Assembly: GCF_003996995.1 (NCBI RefSeq)
Contig: NZ_RZTT01000011.1
Coordinates: forward strand, 1 to 32,158
From: Mesorhizobium sp. M7A.T.Ca.US.000.02.2.1
GTDB lineage: Bacteria > Pseudomonadota > Alphaproteobacteria > Rhizobiales > Rhizobiaceae
Length of the DNA: 32,158 bases
Direction: 5' to 3'
Program-made: the position numbers and the translations under genes
In this document: positions 7,821 to 19,388 of the stretch, piece after piece
Numbering within the stretch: position 1 is the stretch's first letter
Layout of the letters: the number at the start of each line of letters is the position of its first letter
Notes under the pieces: generated by a model
The model's database searches: none
Told to the model about the DNA's origin: nothing
Seen by the model: the letters and a program-made list of their open reading frames with translations, nothing else

Positions 7821-7845
7821 GGAACAACTCACGCGGTGGAAAGTT
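7821..7845 (+). promoter_or_regulatory. EcfG/RpoE2-type promoter for the glycosyltransferase-glf operon
   Basis: GGAAC (7821-7825), 17 bases, GTT (7843-7845). It reads toward the glycosyltransferase ATG at 7938, leaving a leader of about 85 bases. Confidence 0.8.
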
Positions 7846-7937
7846 AGGAGCTGGTACCGAAGTCTATTTCTCCTCCATCTGCGATTAACAAATGTTAGTC
7901 GCAGCATAAATTAAAGATTACAGGAAGGAAAATCTCA

Positions 7938-17593: not shown

Positions 17594-17782
17594 TCACCTT
17601 CCCAGCGGTTGGCGAGAAAGCTGTTCCAGCTCATCCTCATCCGTGATTCCCGCCTGGTAGTAAGCCAGAATACGTGATGCGCGCCGTTCCCTCTCGGTTG
17701 CGGTTTCGTTTTTAATTTTGCTGCGTGCAAAGACGCGACTGAGCAGGGCAAGTTCTGATGGGGTGAAGGCGTCTCTATGCAT
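17594..17782 (-). CDS. Small hypothetical protein with an ELALLxxVFxR motif
   Basis: A 62-residue protein, FTPSELALLSRVFARSKIKN then ETATERERRASRILAYYQAG and ITDEDELEQLSRQPLGR. The ELALL...VF.R block and the acidic DExxLEQL end match the product of 13876-14085. GGGAG lies about 10 bases before the ATG. An exact EcfG promoter lies at 17910-17934, giving a leader of about 120 bases. Probably cytosolic; function unknown. Confidence 0.7.
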   Translation of the reverse strand: MHRDAFTPSELALLSRVFARSKIKNETATERERRASRILAYYQAGITDEDELEQLSRQPLGR

Positions 17783-18123
17783 CGCATCTCAACTCCCGTG
17801 CGTCACCGTCTCTAGAGGGGCCGAGGCGCGCTGAAGCTTGATTGCAGCCTCTGACGCCGGCCAACAAGAGATCGCAGAACGGGCAGTCCGGCGCGCGCTA
17901 ACGCTGGACAAGAAAGTATGTTCCGCGCGTGTTTCGGACGCTAAACAAAGAAGCTCGTCCGGGCCGAGCCAGCAACGGCCTTTTACGTGTGATCTCCTTC
18001 AACTATATCCGGAAAGCCTCTTCCTTGACGGGAATTTCTGGGCTTGCTGTGCGTTTAAAGTTGAGAAATGGCAGTTATGATCTTGGACAGAAAGAATGGC
18101 TTGGCGAGCCGAGTTGCTACAGC
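17783..18123. other. Leader and promoter region, no protein gene
   Basis: Holds the EcfG promoter at 17910-17934 and the long leader of the gene at 17594-17782. Open frames on both strands lack ribosome sites at usable starts. The candidate small RNA lies immediately to the right. Confidence 0.45.
17910..17934 (-). promoter_or_regulatory. EcfG/RpoE2-type promoter
   Basis: Minus strand GGAAC (17934-17930), 17 bases, GTT (17912-17910). It reads toward the small gene starting at 17782. Confidence 0.75.
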
Positions 18124-18126
18124 CAC

Positions 18127-18158
18127 GAAAGCCCGCCCCGGACAAAGCCGAGACGGGC
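18127..18158 (-). terminator. Rho-independent terminator of the small RNA
   Basis: On the minus strand GCCCGTCTCGG (18158-18148) pairs with CCGGGGCGGGC (18141-18131) through Watson-Crick and two G-U pairs, with a CTTTGT loop, followed by TTT. Confidence 0.7.
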
Positions 18159-18212
18159 CGAAGCTGCTTCGACAGCCTCAAGGCCCAGACAATGAGGGAG
18201 GATTGTAGGCCT
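18127..18212 (-). ncRNA. Candidate general-stress small RNA (about 86 nt)
   Basis: It begins about 8 bases after the -10 of the exact EcfG promoter at 18220-18244. The first 32 bases (18212-18181) fold as AGGCC/GGCCU and ACAAU/AUUGU stems around an exposed loop, CCUCCCUC, complementary to Shine-Dalgarno sequences. A small GCUG/CAGC hairpin follows, then a terminator at 18158-18131: an 11-bp stem (GCCCG/CGGGC outer part, CGG/CCG inner part, two G-U pairs) with a 6-base loop, then TTT. No ribosome site or start codon gives a credible peptide. The design resembles GsrN, the sigma-T-dependent stress sRNA of Caulobacter, but homology is not shown. Confidence 0.6.
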
Positions 18213-18219
18213 GCAGCCA

Positions 18220-18244
18220 AACCTCGTACCGCAGTGAATGTTCC
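18220..18244 (-). promoter_or_regulatory. EcfG/RpoE2-type promoter with no protein gene behind it
   Basis: Minus strand GGAAC (18244-18240), 17 bases, GTT (18222-18220). The first features downstream are the hairpin and terminator of the candidate small RNA. Confidence 0.75.
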
Positions 18245-18386
18245 GCGGCTGTAAACTGTCGCTGGGAGTATCATGATCTTTCGGGGATCGACATTCTCGG
18301 CCAGTTACGGCAACTCCTTGTCGGCCGGGTCGAGACGTTGATACGCGCCATCAAGGCAGCCAAGAGCTCGATCAGCCGCGTGATCT
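18245..18386. other. Possible gene debris
   Basis: Both strands are open here. The plus strand reads GIDILGQLRQLLVGRVETLI and the minus strand reads MKITRLIELLAALMARINVS, neither with a ribosome site. Which strand was once coding, if either, cannot be decided. Confidence 0.3.
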
Positions 18387-19343
18387 TCATGTCCGTTGAG
18401 AAGGCTGATCTGCAAATCCAGTCCGCTCGGCGCTCTCAAGCTCTCTATGGGCATGCGACGCGGCAATGGCAGCCTGTCCAAAAGCGACGGCTATCTGGTT
18501 CAACGCTTTGACAACGTCACCAATGGCGTACATGCCTTGGATGGAAGTCTGCTGATGCTCGTCGACTGTGACATAGCCCTCTTCACAACATCTTGCGCCT
18601 ACCGCCTCGGCGAGTTGAGAACGTACCTTGCACCCCAGTGCCAGATAAATGGCATCGAAGCGGGATGACGTCCCATCTTTTAAAATCGCCTCGCAACCGT
18701 CTGCTGTCGGGCAGAGCGTATCGAGAGCGTCACCGATGACTATGCCTCTTGCCCTCGCCGCACCACGAGTGCTGGGCGAAAAGTCGGATGCGTTGCTCCC
18801 AAGCATCGTTATGAGCGGTGTAAACCGACTGAGGAAAATGGCCTCTTTAAAGGCTCTCTCGTCGTGCCCGACGACCGCAATCTTCTGGTCGATCGCCTCA
18901 TACCCGTCGCATACGGGGCAGAGTCGAACGACACCTGCGGCAATTGCCTCGCGTAGACGCGGAATGACAGGTGTCGTATCGATGATCCCTGTCGCCACAA
19001 ACACCTTGCGTGTCCGGATTGCGCCGATCGAGGTCTCAGCGACGAACCCCCGATAGGCAGCGGCGAGGGAATGGACCTTCCCTCCAACCAGAGTGGCTCC
19101 ATACAAGGTGGCGTGACGTCGAAGGCGATCCAGAATATCGGCTCCACTTATCCCTTCGGGAAAGCCAGGACAGTTATGGCTCGTTGGGATCAAGGCGGCA
19201 CGAGGATCGCCGGCATCGATCACCAGCACGCGATGGCGAAAACGGGCGAGATATTGAGCGGCGGTCAATCCCGCCGGCCCGCCTCCGACGATCAGAACAT
19301 CTTCGGTCTCGGCGGTCGGTCGGCTGACGTGGCTGTCGTGCAT
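18387..19343 (-). CDS. Thioredoxin-reductase-like NAD(P)/FAD oxidoreductase
   Basis: A 318-residue flavoprotein of the pyridine-nucleotide-disulfide class II group. It has the FAD site VLIVGGGPAGLTAAQYLARF near 17-36, a CPVCDGYE active-site motif at about 142-149 (TrxB has CATCDG), an NAD(P) site near KIAVVGHDERAFKEA, and the C-terminal FAD motif GMYAIGDVVKALNQIAVAFG. It probably reduces a thioredoxin-like or other disulfide partner; CPxC variants are often not true thioredoxin reductases. In-frame ATGs at 19355 and 19343 are both possible, and neither has a strong ribosome site. A variant stress promoter (TGAAC-N17-GTT, 19364-19388) favours the latter. Confidence 0.85.
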   Translation of the reverse strand: MHDSHVSRPTAETEDVLIVGGGPAGLTAAQYLARFRHRVLVIDAGDPRAALIPTSHNCPGFPEGISGADILDRLRRHATLYGATLVGGKVHSLAAAYRGFVAETSIGAIRTRKVFVATGIIDTTPVIPRLREAIAAGVVRLCPVCDGYEAIDQKIAVVGHDERAFKEAIFLSRFTPLITMLGSNASDFSPSTRGAARARGIVIGDALDTLCPTADGCEAILKDGTSSRFDAIYLALGCKVRSQLAEAVGARCCEEGYVTVDEHQQTSIQGMYAIGDVVKALNQIAVAFGQAAIAASHAHRELESAERTGFADQPSQRT

Positions 19344-19363
19344 GGTGCGGCGCATCACCGGCG

Positions 19364-19388
19364 AACGATTTGGTTCGTGCAATGTTCA
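19364..19388 (-). promoter_or_regulatory. Variant EcfG-type promoter
   Basis: Minus strand TGAAC (19388-19384), 17 bases, GTT (19366-19364); one mismatch. It is placed about 20 bases before the ATG at 19343. Confidence 0.4.

Follow-up and report, generated by a model that had tools for sequence, protein, structure and literature searches.

We identified a candidate small RNA (sRNA) gene in a stretch of Mesorhizobium DNA of 32,158 nucleotides, hereafter the window. It makes up contig C22 in a draft genome of 6.65 Mb (G000). We consider it likely that this is a stand-alone, non-coding, trans-acting sRNA gene that depends on EcfG and whose loop masks Shine-Dalgarno sites. EcfG is the general stress sigma factor, and PhyR frees it from NepR. 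Once released, EcfG would transcribe the gene from the promoter at 18244-18220, and the resulting RNA of about 86-89 nt would fold into three hairpins, with an anti-Shine-Dalgarno-like loop, CCUCCCUC, exposed on the first. When the cell is stressed, the GGGAGG-type ribosome sites of a set of mRNAs would base-pair with this loop, possibly also with the ACAAU arm, and the initiation of translation would be blocked. Transcription, EcfG dependence, pairing, all targets, and the direction of regulation are what we infer. In rhizobia, the sRNAs of the general stress response have so far been charted only thinly, and this RNA offers a compact, testable case, with a promoter, a predicted structure, and natural presence and absence among related strains. 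These strains include relatives that have the neighboring gene without the RNA and others that have the RNA with the gene broken.

Promoter and predicted structure

An earlier note on this DNA had proposed an EcfG-dependent sRNA with an anti-Shine-Dalgarno loop, transcribed from an exact stress promoter, closed by a rho-independent terminator, and similar in architecture to GsrN of Caulobacter. The features considered here are the following.

18220-18244, minus strand: EcfG-type promoter GGAAC-N17-GTT, an exact match, 39-40 nt before CAAUCC in all seven homologues
18125-18213, minus strand: predicted sRNA of about 86-89 nt, its start placed from the promoter spacing; fold z about -4
18181-18212, minus strand: hairpin 1, the predicted 5' domain with the C-rich loop; stems AGGCC/GGCCU and ACAAU/AUUGU
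18194-18201, minus strand: predicted exposed loop CCUCCCUC, anti-Shine-Dalgarno-like; CAAUCCUCC invariant in all seven homologues
18160-18179, minus strand: hairpin 2, a predicted fold; 94.6% of cells paired
18125-18159, minus strand: third stem of 12 bp (18159-18130) with a short U tail; 97.6% of cells paired
17594-17782, minus strand: 62-aa ORF in the flank, outside the RNA; a separate EcfG motif for it lies at 17924-17900

The exact stress promoter is present on the minus strand as the note had claimed, and the conserved GGAAC-N16/17-GTT promoter by which the EcfG (general stress) regulon is recognized was found in all seven homologues. Exact motifs of this type are dense in the window, with 15 in positions 1-32158 against 1.51 expected, a number reached by none of 100 shuffles. 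The motif at 18244-18220, taken alone, is therefore weak evidence. Judged from its sequence, the window is a stretch rich in stress-regulon genes. Its Ku and DUF892 genes begin immediately after EcfG-type motifs. On the plus strand at 7821-7930, another motif precedes a glycosyltransferase frame (7938), and the leader of about 92 nt between them contains an 11-bp hairpin and, 5' of that hairpin, a CUCCUCC stretch. NepR is present in the same genome on contig C36, beside frames that we take to be EcfG and PhyR. A second, partial NepR-like match on contig C63 (L049/L079) corresponds to a 94-aa frame and lies approximately at the cut-off (E 1e-4).

Refolding returned the hairpin coordinates, both stems of the first hairpin, and the second hairpin as they had been described. 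Two slightly different stretches gave one structure, with minimum free energies of -45.2 and -45.7 kcal/mol (z -4.06 and -4.22), and in each case the energy was matched by none of 200 shuffles. Across the seven sequences, 94.7% of the cells of hairpin 1 are paired, with no pair changed on both sides. We rejected covariation as proof of the structure; among the seven homologues there was one double change with the structure given and none with the structure predicted, no more than in shuffles, so folding energy and conservation are what support the structure. The inner stem of the loop hairpin is present in the best fold of six homologues. The exception is G104, in which a U-to-G change creates an A-G mismatch in this stem and the best fold is without the loop hairpin; G063 keeps the hairpin with four pairs and a shorter loop. 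We take the loop CCUCCCUC to resemble the 3' end of 16S rRNA. The anatomy of the proposed anti-Shine-Dalgarno loop thus stood up (CAAUCCUCC in 7/7, the inner stem in 6/7); its mechanism is one that we infer.

The proposal of a strong terminator held in part. The 12-bp stem is strong, but its tail, UUUCGU, has only UUU before C/G, and the longest T run 3' of the stem is two to three in all seven homologues. The stem was absent from the output of a terminator scan that needs five T in eight. A T run of at least five was found in 11 of the 23 weaker covariance-model matches in the genus described below. We regard the third stem as a probable terminator, possibly a leaky one.

Conservation and genomic neighborhood

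Full-length homologues were found by DNA search in seven of 146 genomes of the genus (G000, G029, G104, G028, G096, G063, and G142). At E <= 0.001, the search matched 16 of the 146: these seven, two with degenerate copies (G066 and G124), one with a probably degenerate copy (G102), and six others (G030, G036, G026, G118, G091, and G093), which we rejected as homologues because their matches were terminator-only or unrelated. The degenerate copies, probably including that of G102, have changed loops and no exact promoter; for G066 and G124, this means an altered -35, a -10 that was not found, and a changed loop. The earlier note had named conservation of promoter and loop as a check, and all seven full-length copies keep GGAAC-N17-GTT, the spacing of 39-40 nt to CAAUCC, and CAAUCCUCC. 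Mean pairwise identity is 81% in the promoter, 89% in hairpin 1, 83% in hairpin 2, and 81% in the third stem, with 48% for the 80 nt upstream and 29% for the 80 nt downstream. Promoter, spacing, and hairpins kept in 7/7 copies with diverged flanks support, at the level of sequence, the proposed EcfG-dependent sRNA.

A covariance search, also suggested in the note, was carried out in the genus with a model built from the seven full-length homologues, and it matched 68 of the 146 genomes at E <= 0.1. The seven known copies were refound at E <= 1.4e-17 by construction, because the model was built from them. No further full-length member appeared in the 146 genomes; the next best match scored 37.6 bits, and 23 loci with weaker matches were inspected. 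In a sample of 394 genomes of the family, matches at E <= 5e-4 occurred only in G000, G029, and G378, the last rejected as a homologue for being terminator-like, without promoter or loop, and no homologue outside the genus was found in this sample. A plasmid collection gave no match to the RNA. By these searches, the distribution of the RNA is narrow, covering some Mesorhizobium species.

Upstream of the unit lies a thioredoxin-reductase-like gene (18387-19382) whose score is below the NCBIfam cut-off. The 62-aa ORF on the other side matched no NCBIfam model, and relatives of its protein are present in 119 of the 146 genomes. This neighbor is central to an alternative in which the hairpins act in cis, as a structured leader or attenuator at the 5' end of a downstream gene (the 62-aa ORF, or a response-regulator-like frame in G063) that is reached when EcfG-driven transcription reads through the weak third stem. 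Short U-tracts in all seven copies are consistent with such read-through, as is the downstream arrangement, in which the 62-aa ORF follows on the same strand in each of the five RNA copies inspected and the other two copies have an EcfG motif on their downstream side. However, a separate EcfG motif serves the ORF in all five, and identity drops to 29% right behind the third stem. The distance from promoter to ORF ranges from 261 to 729 nt among the five copies, and the intervening content also differs, whereas the RNA is constant. G063 has a response-regulator-like frame in this interval, a reading made by eye from the letters; G142 and G104 have almost nothing there, and the corresponding stretch of G000 looks like a remnant of the G063-type frame. 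RNA and ORF also occur apart. G029 and G028 keep the RNA with the ORF broken (15 and 51 codons, respectively), and G066, G067, and G124 (L083, L082, and L084) have the ORF at 94-97% identity with the RNA absent within 650 nt upstream. The unit is therefore independent of its neighbor, and we consider a cis-acting leader unlikely. In the same three genomes, the frame upstream of the ORF begins like the DUF6894 ORF of the window, and G067 has a weak model match upstream of the ORF (23.6 bits) without promoter or loop.

Comparison with known sRNAs and with chance or coding sequence

No Rfam family matched in the window at the gathering score. A permissive Rfam search of 17950-18400 returned anti-hemB at E 3.8, with 12.2 bits against a cut-off of 49.5, and we rejected this match as chance. 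Among the titles listed for EcfG and general-stress sRNAs of Mesorhizobium, Rhizobiales, and alphaproteobacteria, none names the window RNA; an sRNA table for M. huakuii, as far as the available part of that article goes, lists coordinates without sequences (PMC5596092). The window RNA is probably a conserved sRNA gene of a known kind, driven by EcfG.

The known RNA named in the earlier note is GsrN. According to the accessible portion of Tien et al. 2018 (PMC5869019), GsrN and the rhizobial GsrN-like candidates combine a general-stress promoter with a C-rich 5' loop, the rhizobial candidates are named by their proximity to phyR-nepR-ecfG, and BLASTn matches of GsrN are confined to Caulobacteraceae. 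The window RNA resembles GsrN of Caulobacter in its stress sigma promoter and in a C-rich loop near the 5' end, exposed for G-rich mRNA sites and predicted in six of the seven best folds. It differs in occurring in few species of its genus, and it is likened to GsrN by description only. Wherever positions are comparable, it lies away from phyR-nepR-ecfG, with nepR and RNA at 1.46 vs 5.08 Mb in G028, at 1.51 vs 2.62 Mb in G063, and at 92 vs 192 kb of one contig in G142; in G000, G029, G104, and G096 the two are on different contigs. This mismatch is not decisive, since gsrN of C. crescentus is itself distal to the GSR locus (PMC5869019, same portion). At the nepR locus of G000, no obvious GsrN-like RNA was seen behind the seven exact EcfG motifs that lie within 9 kb on contig C36, a result that covers one side, the contig ending 56 bases past the phyR-like frame.

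The comparison drawn in the note survives as a loose analogy, but the location does not fit the rule of proximity that Tien et al. 2018 applied. A GsrN orthologue that had been relocated and had diverged past recognition would share the general-stress promoter and C-rich 5' loop of GsrN and the rhizobial candidates and, like gsrN of C. crescentus, could be distal to the GSR locus (PMC5869019, in the part available). The restriction to 7 of the 146 genomes of the genus, the distance from nepR where position is comparable, and the lack of an Rfam match argue against orthology, and we think it very unlikely. Judging by this locus, the EcfG regulon may acquire RNA regulators locally, and not only by way of a conserved GsrN.

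Three other groups of RNAs invite comparison, on the basis of the parts of the cited articles that were available. The anti-Shine-Dalgarno seeds of NfeR1 (ar14) silence ntrB (PMC10746234). Similar to the window RNA, ar14 (RF02344; PMC10746234) is rhizobial and carries an unpaired anti-Shine-Dalgarno motif in a hairpin loop. It differs in having three hairpins, each with CCUCCUCCC, over 123 model positions, whereas the window RNA has one such loop, CCUCCCUC, and has an EcfG motif. The same seven genomes each have five to six RF02344 matches in other places (five in G000, four of them over the cut-off). With ar14 loci elsewhere, no RF02344 match in the window, and the three CCUCCUCCC loops absent, we rejected the window RNA as an ar14 member. 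In AbcR1, the 5' hairpin loop is predicted to pair with the ribosome site of livK, and a reporter assay supports regulation (PMC3712013). An anti-Shine-Dalgarno motif in a 5' hairpin loop is common to AbcR1 and the window RNA, which are likened by description, the window RNA matching no Rfam family. By analogy with the AbcR1 and NfeR1 precedents, the window RNA would act in the general stress response by keeping selected mRNAs from being translated, and it may do so for some genes under stress. Finally, Sigma-E2 (RpoE2) motifs lie upstream of 23 sRNAs of Sinorhizobium meliloti, with arrays supporting eight intergenic regions (PMC3616915). The likeness to these RpoE2-dependent sRNAs, again by description, is the general stress sigma motif upstream; the difference is that the window RNA has no homologue outside its genus in the family sample.

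The abundance of EcfG motifs raises the prospect that a chance motif stands next to an ordinary terminator-like repeat and that there is no RNA, for which the 15 matches in the window and the commonness of the terminator stem in the genus would speak. Joint conservation of promoter, loop, and both other hairpins in seven genomes speaks against it. A promoter-plus-loop pattern found 27 stretches across the contig collection, four of them the copies in G029, G104, G096, and G142; the other 23, scattered outside Mesorhizobium, had hairpin 2 plus terminator in no case, by eye. A loose stem test was passed by 6 of these 23, and one true copy fails the same test. In the genus, a shorter promoter-loop pattern occurred at 18 places in 16 of the 146 genomes, against two for the reversed-pattern control; seven are the known copies, and the 11 remaining places were judged from the printed letters alone. 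We consider coincidence highly improbable.

The note had also stated that no protein gene lies behind the promoter, and this is borne out: within 320 nt there are only two frames of at least 45 codons, both starting with TTG and both, in our judgement, with an unconvincing Shine-Dalgarno site, and the next gene-like frame is the 62-aa ORF at 17782-17594. Among the homologues, indels of 1, 2, and 3 nt fall inside the unit and no reading frame is common to them, and these frame-breaking changes argue against a peptide. A short translated ORF or dual-function RNA is barely credible, since the 91-codon frame that spans the unit in the window begins upstream of the promoter, the related short frames of close relatives differ in start and length, the internal TTG frames lack a convincing Shine-Dalgarno site, and 1- and 2-nt indels separate the homologues.

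Related elements and candidate targets

An exact EcfG motif stands directly upstream in 3 of the 23 weaker covariance-model matches (G097, G100, and G159). A search with the G100 element gave some match in 18 of the 146 genomes and near full-length matches in G100, G078, G159, and G091 (L194, L195, L196, and L197). All four have an exact GGAAC-N17-GTT followed by hairpins and a terminator stem, and none of the four loci has a C-rich loop in the first hairpin. Together with partial matches in G063 and G142, six loci were inspected, and in each an exact EcfG motif leads into a stretch rich in hairpins and a terminator stem. The EcfG motif had been the reason for choosing G100 and G159 but not the other four. 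The partial matches represent a third element, at about 1440-1575 of L200 (G063) and about 1452-1575 of L203 (G142), in genomes that also carry the window RNA. Its order is an EcfG motif, a GCGCC hairpin, a GUUGUUCG hairpin, and a terminator with a T run. In G097 (L029, 1501-1605, reverse strand), an EcfG motif is followed by one hairpin, whose loop region CGUCCCCUCA is rich in C, and by a five-T terminator. A separate conserved genus element, near 1501 in L038, L040, L041, L045, L046, and L047, contains CACACCCCCCGTGGAAACAAGAGGAGAGGGTCCCACCC, CCTCCTCC, and a terminator and is probably a structured RNA distinct from the others.

Tentatively, the window RNA may belong to a wider, so far uncharted class of three-hairpin RNAs that EcfG drives in Mesorhizobium. 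All branches would have the promoter in common, along with one kind of terminator stem and a second hairpin of similar type, with CAGCUU in its 3' arm; the first hairpin would vary between branches and set the targets. Besides the window branch, in which the first hairpin would have become an anti-Shine-Dalgarno loop, the class would contain a G100/G078/G159/G091 branch, a G063/G142 branch, and perhaps G097. The second hairpins of the six loci share GUUGUU and, in most cases, CAGCUUUC, and the window RNA has CAGCUUC. First hairpins differ among the elements, with C-rich loops only in G097 and perhaps G063; since most of the other three-hairpin elements have no C-rich loop, such a loop may not be what defines the class. 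With the window model, the six loci score 17.7-28.9 bits and G097 scores 32.3, and in the four alignments displayed the score comes mostly from the terminator, so homology of the elements as whole units is a lead and not a result.

Target prediction, another check named in the note, showed for the favored trans-acting sRNA that complementary start sites exist, but the best of them is as common without the RNA. The pattern GGAGGATTG-N0-7-ATG occurs five to nine times per genome in the seven RNA genomes, and the reversed pattern does not occur. Among the candidates, the start of a sugar-ABC ATPase gene (best NCBIfam model AraG, below its cut-off) ranks first; there, GGGAGGAUUGU precedes CAUG and 11 nt are complementary to ACAAUCCUCCC. 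The duplex between the RNA and this start was beaten or equalled by 4 of 500 shuffles of the start, and 2 of 50 ORF starts taken mechanically from the window outscore it. The 14-mer GGAGGATTGTCATG marks the ATPase gene in four of the RNA genomes (G000, G063, G104, and G029). Its exact form is found in 124 of the 146 genus genomes, at a sugar-ABC ATPase start in 30 of the 33 loci inspected. It is present in six of the seven genomes with the RNA vs 118 of the 139 without it, and we rejected co-evolution of the target site with the RNA as evidence because the 14-mer is equally common in genomes without it. Conserved without the RNA, the ATPase site is an opportunity and not evidence. Separately, a CAATC-TGGGAG-GATTG hairpin that would hold the Shine-Dalgarno site in its loop occurs at the ATPase start in 21 of the 30 loci (e.g., at about 1501 of L145, reverse strand).
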